DNA of 17,359 nt from Pseudomonadota bacterium (lineage in GTDB: Bacteria; Desulfobacterota; Desulfobacteria; Desulfobacterales; Desulfobacteraceae): contig JAHIVS010000654.1 of the NCBI GenBank assembly GCA_018816605.1, positions 1 through 17,359 of the forward strand, in the 5' to 3' direction. The position numbers and the translations under genes were made by a program. The notes under the pieces were generated by a model, which was given only the letters and a program-made list of their open reading frames with translations, was not told where the DNA came from and made no database searches. Of this stretch, positions 10,149 to 17,359 are shown in pieces (position 1 is the first letter of the stretch; each line of letters begins with the position of its first letter).

Positions 10149-13100
10149 TTAAACTGTCGTTTCTTTAACTTGGCTGTACACGGCTTTTACCAGATAGGTT
10201 GCCGCAACATTTCTGAAAGATTCATCATTCATAAGCCTGATAAAAATCTCTTCGTTCCCGTCCATGCGTTCAACAAACAGGTTTTCCAACTGCTTGTTGA
10301 AAACAGGTTCGAAATTCTCAAGGCTGTTTGCCATAACTGCTTGTCGCAGTTTTTCATTGGCAACGGCAGTTTCTCGCACCTGATCAAAAAACAGCTGGTC
10401 AGCAGGAGTAAACTCAGTCCCAAAACGCTCGTTCAGTTTGTCAACCAGAGTAGAAAGCTGCACATCATCTTCTGCCTGCCCGGTCCCCACCTCTGTAGGG
10501 CCGTAAACAGCCTCGGCTTCACCGACCATTAAATCAATTTTCCCTTCACTGATTTTCTGCAATCGGTAATATTTCAACTCAACGTCATCATCAATATGTA
10601 CAGTGCGCGTATCCGTTGTTCGAGGCAGCTTGGTAATTAGAAAACGCACATAGGAGTAGAGCTTTTCATGATCAGAGTCTTGATACGGTATGATTTGCGA
10701 AACAAAGCTGTACAGATTCCGAAAGCTGACCAATTGGCCTTTGAACAGGTTCTGATCTTCTTCACTTAAATCTGCAAATCGTTTCACCGCCACATCCAAC
10801 ATCGCGTTAAGTTTTTTATGCTCACCGCCTGTTGGATTCAGACGATTACGGAACCAGATTTCACACCAGCTGTTTACCTCGTCATTGGTAAATACTTTCC
10901 AGTTAATCAGGGTATGGGCTAACGTGTTCAGCTGCTGTGGATCTGTATCGTCTCCTTTATCGGTCACTTCATAATATGGTTTGAAGGCAAGGAATATATC
11001 TTCCGGTTCATTCACAAAATCCAGCACAAAGGTATCTGTTTTTCCTCGAATTGTACGGTTTAGGCGTGACAGGGTCTGCACTGCCTGAATTCCGGAAAGC
11101 GTCTTGTCAACATACATGGTATGCAAAAGCGGTTGATCAAAGCCTGTTTGATATTTTTCAGCAACAAGCAGAACCTGGTACTCTTCCGTATTGAATTTTT
11201 CCGGTAGTTCCGATTCTTTAATACCGTTGTTCATACCGACTTCAGTAAATTTCTTGTCGGCAAATTCTTTCAGTGTGATTTCACCTGAAAAAGCCACCAA
11301 AGACTTAACGTCGGTGTAACCCTTGCGCTTGATATATTTATCAAACCCAAGCTTGTAACGGACCGCGTGCTCACGTGAACTTGTGACCACCATGGCTTTT
11401 GCCCGCCCGCCGATTTTATGGCGGGTGTGCGTTCTGAAGTGTTCAACAATAACTTCAACCTTCTGGGCAATCTCATAATCATGAAACTGAACAAAACGGG
11501 CCAGTGCCCGGGCCGCTTTACGACGCGGAACTTCCGGGTCTTCCTCTGCTTTTTGAATCAGCTTATAGTAGCGTTTGTAGCAGGTATAATGTTCAAGAAC
11601 ATCATGAATAAATCCTTCTTCGATCGCCTGTCGCATGCTGTATAGATGAAACGGCGCCTTGCCGTCGGCTCCCGGCTCATTGAACACGCAAAGCGTTTTA
11701 AATTTCGGCGTTGCGGTAAAGGCAAAGAAACTCAAGTTTGGCTGTTTGGGACGCTTTAGCTGCTCCCGGAGAAGATTTTTTTTAGCCGCTTCACTCAAGG
11801 TTTCATCTTCCATATCCAGGAGTTGTTCGGCGATTGCCGATTCAATGCCGTCTTTGTTCAGAATTTTTCTCAGCTCCATGGCTGTTTCACCGCTCTGTGA
11901 GCTGTGGGCTTCATCCACGATCACGGCAAACCGTTTTCCTTCAGTGGCTATCTCGATCGATCTCCCTTTCGACTCAAGGGTTTTTATGGCCTGTGAGATA
12001 AAAGGAAACTTCTGGATGGTGGAAATGATAATCGGGACGCCATCGGCCAGGGCCCTGGCCAGCTGCTGGGTGTTTTCATCGATTTTTTGAACCACCCCAA
12101 GCTTATGTTCAAACTGAAAAATCGTATCCTGCAGCTGCTGATCCAGTACCCGGCGATCTGTAATGACCACCACCGAATGGAAAATCTTTTCATTGTCCGC
12201 ATCATGCAGGCTGGACAACCGGTGCGCCAGCCAGCCGATAGAGTTTGATTTTCCCGATCCGGCCGAGTGCTGAATCAGATAATTATGACCGGAACCATTC
12301 GCCTTTGCATGATCGGTCAGTTTTCTTACGGCAGCAAGCTGATGATAACGTGGGAATATCATCTTTTCTTTTCGAATGCGCTTAATCCCTTTATGGGTTA
12401 CCACGCTCTTTTCTTCGACGTCCAGATGGATAAACCGGGCCAGAATATCCATGAGACTGTCACGGGTCAACACCTGCCGCCAGAGATAAGAGGTGCGCAC
12501 ATCCCCATAGGCCAGCGGATTTCCGGCACCTTGATTCTCCCCAAGATTGAAGGGCAGGAAAAATGTATCTTTCCCTTCCAGTTTTGTTGTCATATAGACA
12601 AGCTCTGTATCGACGGCAAAGTGAACCAGACAGCGTTCTTTGAACGCAAACAGCGGATCTTTAGGGTCCCGCTCAAAGCGATATTGATACTTGGCGTTTT
12701 CTACTGTCCAGCGTGTGGCGGACATGGGATTTTTCAATTCCAGCGTTGCCACCGGCAAACCGTTTACCGCCAGAACAATATCCGGGATGGCACAGGTCTT
12801 TGTTTTGACCTGTCTTACAATCGTCAACCGGTTCTGACCAAAACGCTGGGCAGCTGCCGGATCCAGTCCGGTATTGGGAGAAAAAAAGGCCAAACGCACC
12901 GTCTTGCCAACGCACTTGAAGCCTTCACGCAATATCGATAGAGCCCCTTTGGCATGCAGCTCTTTGGTCAGACTGTCGATGAGCATTGTGGACGCTTTAG
13001 CCGCATCCAGCTGGGTGATGCGCTCCCAGAATTTGGGCTGGGTCTGCTTTATAAAGCCAATTATATCATCAGGAAATAACGCCCGTTCCGGGTCATATCC

Positions 13101-13181
13101 TTTGGCATCGCCTTTATGATACCCACCGCTGGTGATCAGCATGTGCTCAATAGCATTTTCAAAATCAATTTCTTTATGCAT
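10149..13181 (-). CDS. hsdR: Type I restriction enzyme R subunit (HsdR)
   Basis: This is the motor and nuclease subunit of a type I restriction-modification complex. It translocates DNA with ATP and cuts unmethylated DNA far from the recognition site. Numbering here counts from an ATG at 13211. The nuclease domain has PD144 and E158-L-K160 (PD-(D/E)xK). Walker A is SAGSGKS with K321. The DEAH box is D433-E434-A435-H436. FAFTATPK is helicase motif III, and QTLSRLNRT is motif VI. The length of about 1010 residues is normal. The ATG at 13181 is preferred because GGAG lies 6 nt upstream. The ten extra codons from 13211 (MTLKTLTENS) are encoded by 9-bp repeats. That upstream ATG does have AAGGA 5 nt before it, so both starts are possible. 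It is the last gene of the operon. Confidence 0.95.
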   Translation of the reverse strand: MHKEIDFENAIEHMLITSGGYHKGDAKGYDPERALFPDDIIGFIKQTQPKFWERITQLDAAKASTMLIDSLTKELHAKGALSILREGFKCVGKTVRLAFFSPNTGLDPAAAQRFGQNRLTIVRQVKTKTCAIPDIVLAVNGLPVATLELKNPMSATRWTVENAKYQYRFERDPKDPLFAFKERCLVHFAVDTELVYMTTKLEGKDTFFLPFNLGENQGAGNPLAYGDVRTSYLWRQVLTRDSLMDILARFIHLDVEEKSVVTHKGIKRIRKEKMIFPRYHQLAAVRKLTDHAKANGSGHNYLIQHSAGSGKSNSIGWLAHRLSSLHDADNEKIFHSVVVITDRRVLDQQLQDTIFQFEHKLGVVQKIDENTQQLARALADGVPIIISTIQKFPFISQAIKTLESKGRSIEIATEGKRFAVIVDEAHSSQSGETAMELRKILNKDGIESAIAEQLLDMEDETLSEAAKKNLLREQLKRPKQPNLSFFAFTATPKFKTLCVFNEPGADGKAPFHLYSMRQAIEEGFIHDVLEHYTCYKRYYKLIQKAEEDPEVPRRKAARALARFVQFHDYEIAQKVEVIVEHFRTHTRHKIGGRAKAMVVTSSREHAVRYKLGFDKYIKRKGYTDVKSLVAFSGEITLKEFADKKFTEVGMNNGIKESELPEKFNTEEYQVLLVAEKYQTGFDQPLLHTMYVDKTLSGIQAVQTLSRLNRTIRGKTDTFVLDFVNEPEDIFLAFKPYYEVTDKGDDTDPQQLNTLAHTLINWKVFTNDEVNSWCEIWFRNRLNPTGGEHKKLNAMLDVAVKRFADLSEEDQNLFKGQLVSFRNLYSFVSQIIPYQDSDHEKLYSYVRFLITKLPRTTDTRTVHIDDDVELKYYRLQKISEGKIDLMVGEAEAVYGPTEVGTGQAEDDVQLSTLVDKLNERFGTEFTPADQLFFDQVRETAVANEKLRQAVMANSLENFEPVFNKQLENLFVERMDGNEEIFIRLMNDESFRNVAATYLVKAVYSQVKETTV

Positions 13182-13189
13182 GGAGTTCT

Positions 13190-13235
13190 CCGTTAGGGTC
13201 TTTAAAGTCATTAACGTCCTTAAGGTCTATTCTTT
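13190..13235 (-). repeat. Degenerate 9-bp tandem repeats upstream of hsdR
   Basis: Read on the minus strand, four consecutive 9-mers follow the pattern GACNTTAAN: GACCTTAAG, GACGTTAAT, GACTTTAAA and GACCCTAAC, then the hsdR ribosome-binding site. They overlap the last codons of the four-helix-bundle gene. A similar array lies upstream of that gene (13793-13832). Confidence 0.55.
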
Positions 13236-13777
13236 TTTCGAGCCGCTATTCTCATGCGCGTCATTTTCTCGTGCATGCCGCCATCTTTCAGAAAGGCCGC
13301 TTCAAGTGCCTTCAGTTGTTTAAAAAGCAGATAATCCGTCTGCTTGATCAGCACAATCGCCATATTGGCAATGGTCTCCGGCGGACGGGTTTTGACCATC
13401 TCCATGAAAAAGGCCGTGTCATTATGCTCACGCCCCAGCTGGCGCATGGCGTTCAGCTCCTTGGAATTTTCCTCCCACTGCCGATGCTCCCGTGTCCGCA
13501 GATAATCTTCATAATCGATCAACAGTTCCTGAAGACTGGCCTTGGCCACACTCACCAGCTTGATCTCCATCTCGCTGGAGGTGGCCGAAGCGGCAGACCC
13601 CTCCACAATATTCTGCTTGCCCGACCGCGCCGCCTGCACCATCTGATCAATGGTGCGATCCCCGCGCCGCAGATAGTTTTTGCAGAAATAAAAGGTCATA
13701 TCGTAAATGGCTTCCGCCTTCTGATAACTGATCAGCTTCCGGTAGTTGCCTTTTCTGGGGATGAGCTCGTCTGTCAT
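13220..13777 (-). CDS. Four-helix-bundle suffix-domain protein in the hsd operon
   Basis: This 185-residue protein belongs to the four-helix-bundle family related to 23S rRNA intervening-sequence proteins and to Avd of diversity-generating retroelements. The core has AEAIYDMTFYFCKNYL (22-37), RTIDQMVQAARSGKQNIVEG (41-60) and an ASLQELLIDYEDYLRTR segment. The C-terminal end FLKDGGMHEKMTRMR is the suffix element seen in a subfamily that often lies among restriction-modification genes. Its function is not established; basic family members bind nucleic acid. It lies between hsdS and hsdR. The ATG at 13777 follows AGAGAGG 7 nt upstream. Arrays of a 9-bp repeat lie just before it and just after it, which suggests that this gene plus its repeats entered as a unit. 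Confidence 0.85.
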   Translation of the reverse strand: MTDELIPRKGNYRKLISYQKAEAIYDMTFYFCKNYLRRGDRTIDQMVQAARSGKQNIVEGSAASATSSEMEIKLVSVAKASLQELLIDYEDYLRTREHRQWEENSKELNAMRQLGREHNDTAFFMEMVKTRPPETIANMAIVLIKQTDYLLFKQLKALEAAFLKDGGMHEKMTRMRIAARKKNRP

Positions 13778-13792: not shown

Positions 13793-13832
13793 TTAAGGTC
13801 GCTAATGACTTTAAAGTCTTTAATGTTTTCCC
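13793..13832 (-). repeat. Degenerate 9-bp tandem repeats upstream of the four-helix-bundle gene
   Basis: On the minus strand the array reads ACATTAAAG, ACTTTAAAG, TCATTAGCG, ACCTTAACA and then AGAGAGG, the ribosome-binding site. It resembles the array before hsdR (13190-13235) in direct orientation. Because each unit holds TTAA, the two arrays also match as inverted repeats: 22 of 24 positions agree between CTTTAAAGTCATTA-type segments. Confidence 0.55.
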
Positions 13833-13843
13833 GCCTTGCCTCA

Positions 13844-15283
13844 TTATCCATGGTTGACAAGCTCCTCAGCTTCAGGGAGACGGAAATTGCGCACGTCGAT
13901 CTTGCCGGTTACGGCATTGGTGATGAGGGCGGAACGGTATTCCTGGAGGCGGGTGATGACGATCTCCACTTTATGAGTGAAAGCTTCCAGCTCACCAATG
14001 CTTTCATTAAGGTGTTCAAGAATTTTATACTGTTCATCAACAGGTGGGATTGGTAACCAAACTTCTTTTAGTGATTCCGAATAAATCACTTCGATTGTTG
14101 TTGCATTACTCATCAATTTCAAATGCTCAAAAACGAACCCACTTTCTCCAATCAAAACTTTCAGGTAACTGTTCAGAATTTGCTTCTGGTTGATTTGCAG
14201 TCGCATTAAACATGGATGTAAAATACCTTTTTCAGCGTCATGCGGCACAATTAAACATCGACCTATTGTTCCCCTTGTAGTCACCAAGAGGTCATCTGGA
14301 AAAACTTCAAATGCTATTAAATCTCTATATTTTTCGAACGATATATAGTTGTTTCCGCCTTTAAGATCCTGACTAATTACATTTTTTTGATTATAAACCT
14401 TCACCTCACTATCATTCATTTCCGAGCTTTGAAGTTGACTGCCGAAGGGGCCGGTTTTAATTGCAGCTTTCTTATATTTCAGCAAATGCTTTATCCTCTT
14501 CGTCTCCCAATGCGCCGGGATTTCCCCGAGCCAGTCGATGCCGGAGTCACGCATGGAGGCCTTGGGATCAAGCCCTTTGGTGACGGCGTGACTGATGAGG
14601 GCGGTGCGCTTTTCCAAAAGCTTCTCCAGAAGCGCTTTTTTTTTGGCAATCAGCGCATCAATCTTCGCTGTTTTATAATCAAGAAATGCCGCAATAGTTT
14701 GCTGCTCTGGAATGGATGGAAGCGAAAAAGAAAAGGTTTTCAGTGCCTCAAAGTTTAAACCTTCTCGACCAGCCCCGGTTTGTTCAACGTTTATTTGTGT
14801 TTGCCCAGCATCAGAACTCATTGCGTAAAAAAGATATGAAGTTGTGATTATTGCGTTTGGCCGAATTATGCAAACATGCTGATTTACGTTGGCGTCTTCG
14901 TATTCATCACCCCAGAAATAACACCTGCCAATAGAGGCTCCGGTAATATTCAATAATACATCACCAGTTTTGACCTGACTGTTTTTCATATCTGCATGCA
15001 CAGACTCATCTATGAAAGCCACATCATGCAGTTTCAATCCATCAAAGTGAATATTCTGGCTTCGTAACAGTGGAATGCCAGAATTCTGATAAACTGTAGC
15101 CCCCCCACGCGGAGTGACTCCGCTACCAATTTTTATGGAAAGAAACTTTAATCGTTTTACACCCCAGTGCTTCGGCACATTCCCTATCCATTCCACACCC
15201 GATTCCTTATACTCCGAATAAGGCTGATACCTCACAGCCGCAGCACCATCCGGAACTGCTTCCTGTAAATGCTTATCCCCCAT
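13844..15283 (-). CDS. hsdS: Type I restriction-modification specificity subunit (HsdS)
   Basis: This 479-residue protein sets the DNA sequence bound by the complex. It has the two-fold HsdS layout. A half-repeat SGVEWIGNVPKHW (29-41, counted from a GTG one codon upstream) precedes target-recognition domain 1 (about 42-190). The central conserved helix is IPEQQTIAAFLDYKTAKID and the following Lys-rich coil (to about 240). The second half-repeat SGIDWLGEIPAHW (248-260) precedes target-recognition domain 2 (to about 415), and a C-terminal helix ends in NAVTGKIDVR. The two recognition domains differ, so a bipartite asymmetric target is expected. The ATG at 15283 is preferred, with GAGGTG 5 nt upstream; that site lies inside the duplicated hsdM tail. 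The start overlaps the stop of the short upstream ORF. Confidence 0.94.
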   Translation of the reverse strand: MGDKHLQEAVPDGAAAVRYQPYSEYKESGVEWIGNVPKHWGVKRLKFLSIKIGSGVTPRGGATVYQNSGIPLLRSQNIHFDGLKLHDVAFIDESVHADMKNSQVKTGDVLLNITGASIGRCYFWGDEYEDANVNQHVCIIRPNAIITTSYLFYAMSSDAGQTQINVEQTGAGREGLNFEALKTFSFSLPSIPEQQTIAAFLDYKTAKIDALIAKKKALLEKLLEKRTALISHAVTKGLDPKASMRDSGIDWLGEIPAHWETKRIKHLLKYKKAAIKTGPFGSQLQSSEMNDSEVKVYNQKNVISQDLKGGNNYISFEKYRDLIAFEVFPDDLLVTTRGTIGRCLIVPHDAEKGILHPCLMRLQINQKQILNSYLKVLIGESGFVFEHLKLMSNATTIEVIYSESLKEVWLPIPPVDEQYKILEHLNESIGELEAFTHKVEIVITRLQEYRSALITNAVTGKIDVRNFRLPEAEELVNHG

Positions 15284-15417
15284 CACAGCACCTCACTGAG
15301 CATGGAAACAATTTCTTTTTCCAGCAGACTGGTCTCTTTGGCAATGGCTTCAAGCGGGCGTGGCGGCTGGTAAACGTAGAATTGTCGGGTCAGCAGAATC
15401 TCATGGCCGGCTTTGGT
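15283..15417. repeat. 135-bp direct repeat, copy of the hsdM 3' end (hsdS side)
   Basis: It aligns without gaps to 17081-17215 at a constant offset of 1798 nt, with 13 mismatches by my count (about 90% identity). It carries the hsdS ribosome-binding site at its 3' end (minus strand). Identity stops sharply at 15417. Confidence 0.9.
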
Positions 15418-15492
15418 TTGAACGTTCCGGCATTTCCGGACGGTTGCGCTTATTCGATGTTTGAAACAGGAAAAAAAGGGGAGTTGCATCCC

Positions 15493-15609
15493 TTCAGTCA
15501 AGTAGCGATCAAATAAAGACAAAGCGTCTAACATGTTTATTTTCAATGCGTTAGGTCCGGTCAGGGGTGCCGCGTTCCCCTCTCCAGTCAAATAACCGTC
15601 AAATAAAAG
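15493..15609. repeat. Two imperfect 26-bp direct repeats in the non-HsdM part
   Basis: TTCAGTCAAGTAGCGATCAA plus 6 nt (15493-15518) resembles 15583-15609 (TCCAGTCAAATAACCGTCAA and on) with about six differences. They encode the two LFDxYLT motifs. This suggests that the segment is itself built from repeats and is not a normal gene end. Confidence 0.45.
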
Positions 15610-15611
15610 GT

Positions 15612-17081
15612 TCATTTGGCCCACCATGGCAGATATTTCATGAATTTTCGGGACGCCTGGCTGTCATAAGGCACAATGCTGTCGGCTTCCAGTGCATCCT
15701 TAATGACTCTGGAAGCCATGGAGCTGTTTTTCTCTGCAATGCCGAAACGTTCACGCAGAGTGCTGTTGGTCATATAATCGCGCTGAACATACCGCAGGCA
15801 GGCATGCAGATAGCAGGCACGGATACGATCCTGTTTGTCCATGTCTCTGAATTCCCGGTGAGCAAACAATACTGCCCGGGTATGTTCTTCGGTTTGTTCA
15901 AACAAGGGGGCCGGAAGCTGGTAAAGTTCGGTCTGAAAAACCACTTTGTCAATGCCGCTGCCGCGCTCTTCACATACGCCGATTCGACGCATGAAAGACG
16001 CAAGCGCTTCATTGCGGGATTTGGGCGGGCTGTCCAGAAAGCGGTCCGTTTTCACCAGCGGAAGTCCGGGATTGGTAATTTCCATGCGGTTGGCAAAAAT
16101 CTCAACCAGCGGCGCGGTTCCGGTGATATGGAAGTCTTGATGAATGATGGCATTGGCGACCATCTCGCGGATGGCCAGCTCAGGAAACATGGGGACTTCT
16201 TTGCGCAATGCCTGTCCGATCACTTCATTACTTGGAAGCAGGTTTTTTACATATTCAATCAACCCCTCAAAACCGACCGCATACCCTTTTCCACCTTCCT
16301 GTTCTCGAATGGTTTCGACCCGGGTTTCCCCTTTGTAGAGAATAACGCGAACGGCCTTACGCCTGAGGGTATGAAAATCAGACAATCTGCGCGCTAAAAG
16401 AACCGCCCCCAGATTCGTAACATGCCATTTCCCGCCATTGCCCTTGCGGATCATTTCTTCTGTAGCAAGTGAATCTAAAATTCCGTCTCGTCCTTCTGGC
16501 AGGGGAAGTGAAAGCAAGTCAAAATATGCTGGATAGTCCAGCAATTTCAGCACATCTTCTGTGGCAATGTTTTCAGCTGCGACCTCTTTTTCAAATGGAA
16601 TACGATCGAAGACCCGCCACAGTTCGCGCTCTTTCTCAGGATAATCTTTCAGCTTTTTCTTGTAAGAGCCAATACGGATATATTCGATGTTTTTAAATTG
16701 AACCGGATGTCTGAAGGCAGCCCCTATCTCCAGGAGCACCATTGGTTTTCCGTCGTGAACAAAGGCATAAAAATGAAAATTGATCTTGGGTGAAAGCAGT
16801 CGCAGCAACCAGCTCTCCAGCTCTTCATTGCCTATCTTGGCTATACCAGGGTTAAATGCGGTTCCAATGATGTCGTGGCTGGAATCATCCACCCCCCATA
16901 CCATATAGGCGTGGACCTTACCGTTCAGGGCGGCTCCATTAGCCAGTGCAGAAAGGTATTCGCCTATTTCCTGAGGATCTTCATTGTTGTGTTTTAATTC
17001 CAGCCATTCAGTTTCTGTTGGCAATTTCCGTAATTCCGACAGCATGCTGATCAGTTCCGATTCTTGTAATTTTATACTCAT
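15612..17081 (-). CDS. AlbA_2 (Schlafen-like) and HATPase-domain protein in the hsd operon
   Basis: This 489-residue protein has an N-terminal AlbA_2/Schlafen-like domain: ETEWLELKHNN (23-33), LSALANGAAL (43-52), VWGVDD (61-66) and RIGSYKKKLKDYPEKE (136-151). A GHKL-type ATPase-like domain follows: EMVANAIIHQDF (306-317), ITNPGLP (335-341) and EERGSG (371-376). The C-terminal 90 residues look like a winged helix. Proteins of this build (COG2865) are often found beside type I restriction genes. Their role is not established; control of restriction or nucleic-acid processing has been suggested. The start shares one base with the hsdM stop (TAATG), with GAGGTG 5 nt upstream inside the hsdM tail. 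The gene is bracketed by 135-bp direct repeats, which marks it as an inserted cassette. Confidence 0.88.
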   Translation of the reverse strand: MSIKLQESELISMLSELRKLPTETEWLELKHNNEDPQEIGEYLSALANGAALNGKVHAYMVWGVDDSSHDIIGTAFNPGIAKIGNEELESWLLRLLSPKINFHFYAFVHDGKPMVLLEIGAAFRHPVQFKNIEYIRIGSYKKKLKDYPEKERELWRVFDRIPFEKEVAAENIATEDVLKLLDYPAYFDLLSLPLPEGRDGILDSLATEEMIRKGNGGKWHVTNLGAVLLARRLSDFHTLRRKAVRVILYKGETRVETIREQEGGKGYAVGFEGLIEYVKNLLPSNEVIGQALRKEVPMFPELAIREMVANAIIHQDFHITGTAPLVEIFANRMEITNPGLPLVKTDRFLDSPPKSRNEALASFMRRIGVCEERGSGIDKVVFQTELYQLPAPLFEQTEEHTRAVLFAHREFRDMDKQDRIRACYLHACLRYVQRDYMTNSTLRERFGIAEKNSSMASRVIKDALEADSIVPYDSQASRKFMKYLPWWAK

Positions 17082-17215
17082 TACAGCACCTCGCTGAGCA
17101 TGGAAATAATCTCTTTTTCCAGCTGACTGATCTCTTTGGCAATCGCTTCAAGAGGTCTTGGCGGCTGGTAAACGTAGAATTGTCGGGTCAGCGGAATCTC
17201 ATAGCCGACTTTGGT
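17081..17215. repeat. 135-bp direct repeat, hsdM 3' end (original position)
   Basis: This copy is the authentic 3' end of the hsdM frame and carries the ribosome-binding site of the AlbA_2 gene. It is about 90% identical to 15283-15417. Beyond 17215 the frame continues as normal HsdM, while the other copy changes to unrelated sequence, which shows which copy is native. Confidence 0.9.
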
Positions 17216-17359
17216 CTTGTTGTGGTCAATCCACGCATCCGGAACATGGGGGAGTACTTCTGCCTGCAGGTAGGTCTCGCAATGATCTCTCACCAGATCA
17301 AGCAGCTTGTCATGATCGGTTTGGTTATCGTAGCCCAAAGGCAACGGCAGTTCGATATC
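17081..17359 (-). CDS. hsdM: Type I restriction-modification methyltransferase subunit (HsdM), C-terminal part
   Basis: The frame is open to the window edge and ends with TAA at 17081-17083. The 92 visible residues match the conserved HsdM C-terminus: AEVLPHVPDAWIDHNKTKVG, then YEIPLTRQFYVYQPPRPLEA and a helical end ISMLSEVL. HsdM transfers a methyl group to adenine in the target set by HsdS and protects host DNA. The AdoMet-binding and NPPF catalytic motifs lie outside the window. It would be the first gene of the operon as seen here. Confidence 0.92.
   Translation of the reverse strand, partial: DIELPLPLGYDNQTDHDKLLDLVRDHCETYLQAEVLPHVPDAWIDHNKTKVGYEIPLTRQFYVYQPPRPLEAIAKEISQLEKEIISMLSEVL

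Follow-up and report, generated by a model that had tools for sequence, protein, structure and literature searches.

The 17,359-nt stretch of DNA analyzed here, hereafter the window (contig JAHIVS010000654.1 of assembly GCA_018816605.1, from a member of the Desulfobacteraceae), carries a type I restriction-modification (R-M) locus in which a Schlafen-type gene lies between hsdM and hsdS. The order on the minus strand is hsdM, the Schlafen-type gene, a 194-bp spacer, a second hsdM tail, hsdS, a four-helix-bundle gene, and hsdR. The 3′ end of hsdM, which holds the working copy of the tail, occupies 17081..17359 (PADLOC MTase_I, 8.4e-27), and the gene continues past the window end. The Schlafen-type gene (15612..17081; 489 amino acids; Pfam SLFN_AlbA_2 and HATPase_c_4) overlaps the hsdM stop with its start, the two being joined by a TAATG overlap. 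A TGATG overlap joins the stop of the second tail to the likely start of hsdS (13844..15286, likely ATG at 15283; Methylase_S, 1.1e-22).

Two Copies of the hsdM End

The original prediction for this DNA, made from the sequence alone, was that the end of hsdM occurs on both sides of the AlbA_2/HATPase gene. This was borne out by repeat search and alignment, which gave a direct repeat of 137 nt whose left copy (17079..17215, minus strand) comprises the hsdM end and the TAATG overlap and whose right copy (15281..15417, minus strand) comprises the second tail and the TGATG overlap at the hsdS start. Base-by-base comparison over the full nucleotide alignment revealed 124 identical bases of 137 (91%), confirming that the two tails are related, with similarity stopping sharply at both ends, and both copies matched the C terminus of the type I methyltransferase model. 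Comparison of the downstream flank of the window with its own upstream flank gave a local score of 223, against a best score of 50 in 43 comparisons with the upstream flanks of other loci; the repeat is therefore not a chance similarity. The inserted unit holds one Schlafen gene, and hsdM and hsdS, which lie outside it, were both left intact, as had been proposed. No transposase domain was found in the unit by Pfam domain search, consistent with the predicted gain of a gene without a transposase, and no integrase domain was found there in the list of open reading frames (ORFs) or by the Pfam domain search.

The translated tail copies differ at six residues and were judged by residue tallies and identities, 135 bp being short for a tree. 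The hsdS-side copy has His at a position where 28/28 HsdM tails carry Tyr, and Ala, Leu, and Thr at three positions where these residues were seen in 0/28; the remaining two differing positions are variable among HsdM tails and little informative. With residues that none of 28 other HsdM tails shows, the hsdS-side copy looks like a decaying hsdM relic rather than the working tail of another hsd lineage, which speaks against the earlier suggestion that it came from a related hsd locus. It has probably been kept because it contains the hsdS stop/start overlap and ribosome-binding region.

The Schlafen-type Protein and Its Relatives

An AlbA_2 domain was placed by Pfam at residues 23–144 of the protein (PF04326, 9.2e-15) and a GHKL ATPase domain at residues 321–405 (PF13749, 5.1e-22, above the cut-off). 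Residues E23, E28, and K30 were invariant across 27 sequences, forming an E-x4-E-x-K arrangement that we take to be the SLFN catalytic pattern. SLFN structures were among the fold matches of a structure model of the protein, and a C-terminal winged helix is probable at about residues 413–489 on the basis of modeling. We infer that the Schlafen-type protein is a defense RNase.

Some match to the gene at E ≤ 0.001 was present in 53 of the 86 genomes of the window's nearest family, only seven places matching at E ≤ 1e-130; one protein with 98% identity bears the name Desulfobacter postgatei. Relatives occurred in 14/395 genomes of the phylum at E ≤ 1e-80 and in 17/369 and 19/288 genomes of two other groups at 1e-60, the center genomes being counted. 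The gene was located between hsdM and hsdS at loci L062, L066, and L076 and between hsdS and hsdR at L064, L086, and L087; its neighbors were DUF1156/PLD anti-phage genes at L077, an OLD-like gene at L060, and an AAA-like gene at L059 (the last two names read from translations). The plasmid loci L082 and L088 had no recognized defense gene close by, and one plasmid record lists a Schlafen homologue under the annotation MloB. The Schlafen unit is not tied to restriction loci. In a viral collection, four stretches fitted a pattern, none encoding a relative.

Three relatives showed additional features. Oligosphaera ethanolica has another AlbA_2-like gene, placed between its hsdS and hsdR (L062:9150-11147). 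At L069:944-2085, the Schlafen gene is broken by an apparent insertion of a two-ORF transposase. In a Streptococcus satellite phage (L080), the Schlafen homologue adjoins the integrase at the element end, and the site pair described below lies ahead of the gene.

Paired Sites beside the Gene

A site of ∼20 bp, often made up of two half-sites 11 bp apart, was found directly past the Schlafen stop, with a second copy further downstream. In the window, site 1 (TTTGACGGTTATTTGACTGG; 15584..15603, minus strand), with two half-sites 11 bp apart, lies a few nucleotides past the stop, and site 2 (TTTGATCGCTACTTGACTGA; 15494..15513, minus strand) lies 90 bp from site 1. The site sequences vary by group and include TTTGAC-type, TATGTGAC-type, ATTGATGGG-type, and other forms. 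A bridge ORF of 114 amino acids (15283..15627, minus strand) connects the Schlafen stop with the hsdS start, crossing both sites and the tail relic on the way. Comparable bridge ORFs, each a continuous open frame, occur at L062 (113 amino acids) and L095 (116 amino acids), where, as in the window, short hsdM-tail remnants lie behind site 2. Judged from the sequences, this continuity may reflect selection for translation coupling of hsdS.

Site pairs were scored as the best pair of 20-mers 55–120 bp apart within the first 180 nt, relative to 300 dinucleotide shuffles. In the first set of relatives, from which 14 of 58 loci were removed (same genome, near-identical, or truncated), a pair was found at p ≤ 0.01 in 29/44 loci and at p ≤ 0.05 in 33/44, and 0/44, 0/44, 1/44, and 0/40 were obtained at p ≤ 0.01 for control stretches taken within these genes and around them. 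The later set held 36 loci, of which three lacked the C terminus of the gene and, of the other 33, two were too short for this test; a pair was found in 13/31 loci at p ≤ 0.01 and 15/31 at p ≤ 0.05, or 11/29 and 13/29 once two copies of a first-set locus were excluded (L143 and L156, which are one place identical to L068). Site control windows were run on the first set only, the controls of the later set being own-versus-cross and inverted flank comparisons.

The distances between sites fell in steps of ∼11 bp (54–56, 66–67, 76–78, 88–90, 98–101, and 107–110, with 96 and 118 as exceptions). The sample comprised the downstream pairs of 42 of 73 loci that passed a 16/20 cut, the 73 coming from 75 non-redundant loci of which two were too short, together with the upstream pairs of L080 and L108, which were added by hand. 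The period-11 resultant length for these 44 loci was 0.79 (p about 2e-4 versus uniform spacings, periods 9–13 scanned). Values of 0.77 (12 loci, p 0.006) and 0.79 (24 loci, p 2e-4) were obtained with one locus per 60% cluster and per 70% cluster, respectively. Periods from 10.5 to 11.5 fitted the spacing nearly equally well, and the best internal period of the sites was 11 in 28 of 32 tallies, ties included. Spacing that is quantized on the helical repeat points to binding along one face of double-stranded DNA and argues against an RNA or coding role. The sequences are therefore helically phased DNA sites, for which expression and mobility are candidate roles.

None of 4227 Rfam families reached the gathering score in the spacers of the window and six other loci; one unrelated Rfam match lay elsewhere in L062, outside the spacer. 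The core separating the two sites was suspected of being palindromic, but this was rejected: across 42 loci the longest perfect stem was 4.45, versus 4.24 after shuffling. When 10 genomes were scanned with a 17-mer motif, 11 of the 13 matches adjoined this gene; a wider regulon of the motif was likewise rejected, the two matches away from the gene both lying within coding sequence. At L163 and L164, the site region behind the Schlafen stop has grown into a tandem array of several copies, each of about 66 bp, and at L170 and L169, site units are present on both sides of the gene.

Direct Repeats around Related Genes

The 1.5-kb upstream flank of each gene was compared with its own downstream flank, and these results were set against cross pairs. 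At E ≤ 1e-5 (13 of 58 first-set loci removed, L083 retained), own direct repeats were present in 7/45 loci versus 11/1980 cross pairs (Fisher 4e-8, the cross pairs not being independent). The seven loci were the window, L067, L078, L083, L088, L096, and L108, L078 and L083 being alike. At E ≤ 1e-3, direct repeats were found in 9/41 first-set loci and inverted repeats in 1/41, a count that omits the window, whose upstream flank is too short. In the later set, in which five of 33 loci were too short and the remaining 28 may include L143 and L156, the same threshold gave direct repeats in 5/28 loci versus 8/756 cross pairs and inverted repeats in 0/28; of the five, L163 and L164 alone were taken as target duplications.

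The duplicated stretch is the 137-bp hsdM end in the window, 223 bp (96%) of an integrase end at L096, 78 bp (97%) across the ATGA overlap between pqiB-like and pqiC-like genes at L108, 78 bp (96%) of a moxR-like gene end at L163, and 102 bp (90%) at the start of a glycosyltransferase-like gene at L164 (the targets at these last four loci being read from translations). The repeats at L088, L067, and L078/L083 are 189 bp (85%), 56 bp (84%), and 97 bp (67%), respectively. Duplications thus ranged from 56 to 223 bp, and the repeat copies were 1.64–2.09 kb apart in nine loci. Because the repeats of some relatives derive from quite different targets, homology to hsdM is not a general rule.

Several further candidates were set aside. 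The 260-bp repeat at L169 is perhaps a dispersed host repeat, the repeat at L170 is the site unit itself, and those at L174, L006, and L007 were weak; none was counted. At L059, L060, and L061, the match of the upstream tail to the right flank either failed to exceed some of the cross comparisons or was unconvincing.

Loci without the Gene

A match to the moxR-like gene of L163 was found in 29 genomes, of which 14 besides that of L163 itself were fetched at the best place. These genes are 61–75% alike to the moxR of L163, and in 13/13 informative relatives, with 474 or more bases available behind moxR, no Schlafen match was present; the 14th, L180, has just 164 bases behind moxR and is uninformative. 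No Schlafen match was found at L112–L117, and in the Arcobacteraceae loci L112 and L113 hsdM is followed directly by hsdS. Relatives that lack the gene yet carry both tails would have contradicted the original prediction; within the window's family, 28 hsdM loci were examined with flanks of about 1.5 kb, and in these stretches the gene was absent and no real second tail was present. A single tail match was found at 27 of these loci, the extra match at L035 covering 25 amino acids at E 0.03. A DNA search of 22 family genomes for an empty L108 site matched just its own genome, G393, in which the repeated stretch occurs twice. For L096, integrase-like DNA was present in 13/59 family genomes, its own included; five relatives compared were about 63–70% alike and had no Schlafen match, and they are too distant to count as empty sites.

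Origin of the Insertion

We consider insertion with long target duplication the probable route by which a Schlafen unit, including phased sites of its own, came to lie at hsdM-hsdS. The 1.6–1.7-kb unit would comprise one Schlafen gene and a helically phased site pair, and its insertion would have copied 137 bp of the hsdM end, one copy staying with hsdM and the other with hsdS. The flanking repeats would then be target duplications rather than carried-in sequence. The winged helix may bind the phased sites, most likely to control both the Schlafen gene and its downstream neighbor, hsdS in this case.

A number of results weigh against this interpretation. Flanking repeats were found in a minority of loci, no common sequence was seen at the unit ends when these were compared by eye, and no empty counterpart of the window's own locus was found. 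The Arcobacteraceae loci L109–L111 carry the gene exactly at the hsdM/hsdS overlap with no visible duplication, and L096 could contain what is left of a second integrase. Repeats at E ≤ 1e-3 also flank control ORFs of the same loci (8/136 direct and 4 inverted). Three of the eight are the Schlafen repeats seen again, leaving 5/133 (2/133 at E ≤ 1e-5), and the pooled strong cases stand at 7/69 versus 2/133 control genes (p 0.008); taken by itself, the second set, with 2/28 strong cases, is not significant (p 0.14). The site pair failed at p ≤ 0.05 in 11/44 first-set and 16/31 later-set loci, many of which are distant relatives, but L064, L070, L072, L074, L102, and L141 are 61–72% alike.

The original prediction was of a cassette, consisting of the gene and an hsdM tail, that entered by homologous recombination. 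The gene and tail would have come from another hsd locus, whether through a single crossover of a circle or through one-sided homology with an illegitimate second joint. Such an event would yield the identical structure, the Arcobacteraceae loci resemble plain exchange, and the hsdM-tail remnants at L062 and L095 would also fit; moreover, Campylobacter jejuni hsd loci are known to rearrange and to hold accessory genes, according to the available part of one report (PMC5183652). The same pattern is, however, seen at moxR-, pqi-, glycosyltransferase-, and integrase-type targets, and the second tail looks decayed, so that we regard the cassette as improbable. What stands of it is the entry of a one-gene unit at the hsdM-hsdS junction; that the unit brought an hsdM tail along is unsupported, long repeats being present also at non-hsd targets. 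As to the predicted modular route of gene gain by restriction loci, the unit also sits beside these other targets. Also rather unlikely, though less so, is a history of random illegitimate insertions of a gene that was transferred for its defense value and has no mobility machinery of its own, events that duplicate a target edge surviving because the neighbors stay intact. The variable ends and duplication lengths are consistent with this, as is the inclusion of gene edges in the duplicated stretches of the strong cases, yet intergenic insertion would need no duplication and long repeats recur in two sets.

With respect to the phased sites, we lean slightly toward their being operators only, with the protein acting as controller of itself and the next gene in the manner of other restriction-locus controllers and repressors. 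The probable winged helix, the position of the sites, which separate the gene from its next neighbor (hsdS, hsdR, PLD, and others), and the lack of any sign of a wider regulon in the motif scan all favor this role. Against it, sites are retained without a visible partner gene close behind, for example at L082 and L088. It is very doubtful that the Schlafen gene together with its phased sites makes up a new type of mobile element, complete in itself, whose protein drives the insertion. In such an element, the protein, with its nuclease-type AlbA_2 domain, GHKL ATPase, and winged helix, would assemble on the phased sites, and widely spaced nicks would lead to target duplications of about 60–220 bp.

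Relation to Known Systems

The concept of insertion with long target duplication reportedly goes back to Nobusato et al. in 2000, who proposed it from genome comparison and tied it to restriction genes. To our knowledge, no enzyme is known for it; the mobile-element interpretation, if true, would provide these long-known insertions with one. In sections of three reports (PMC1643837, PMC3031569, PMC2749054), insertion with long target duplication is often associated with the insertion of R-M genes in Helicobacter pylori. As described in those sections, it resembles the present case in its long, variable direct target repeats on both sides and its association with R-M loci; the inserts there are R-M genes, whereas here a single Schlafen gene with phased sites is inserted, also beside non-R-M genes. 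Proteins of the order Schlafen RNase, minimal histidine kinase, winged helix-turn-helix that are linked to BREX (PMC12839542) share the domain order and the position beside or inside defense loci; phased sites and flanking duplications go unmentioned in the available portion of that source. The mlo/rlo genes of C. jejuni (PMC5183652) are likewise accessory genes between hsd genes, for which the accessible text describes neither flanking duplications nor sites. RptR, a repressor of type I R-M islands (PMC12255303), is similar in being a type I locus regulator that binds direct repeats; as far as the available text goes, it differs in being a 9-kDa protein whose 9-bp repeats lie in the promoter upstream of its own gene, with no mention of Schlafen or AlbA. 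The unit is unlike a classical insertion sequence or transposon in having no transposase and in its duplications of 56–223 bp rather than short ones, and unlike an integrase-driven island or gene cassette in having no integrase domain.

A search of the open-license literature, preprints not included, turned up no account of Schlafen genes flanked by long target duplications, nor of the phased sites. As far as searched, both the phased ∼20-bp sites and the association of this insertion pattern with a lone Schlafen gene are new. The pattern suggests how restriction and other defense operons acquire a Schlafen gene without loss of neighbors, and the phased sites are a candidate DNA partner for bacterial Schlafen proteins. 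Since one small gene and conserved sites show the same pattern at several unrelated targets, a single protein and a single DNA site would suffice to test the mechanism.

Downstream Genes of the Window

The hsdR gene of the window (10149..13211, minus strand) matches HSDR_N and SWI2_SNF2, with TIGR00348 below its cut-off. The four-helix-bundle gene between hsdS and hsdR (13220-13777) is bracketed by 31-nt inverted arms (13193-13223 and 13793-13823) that are 84% complementary and contain short repeats 9 bp apart. This gene with its arms is possibly another small inserted unit.

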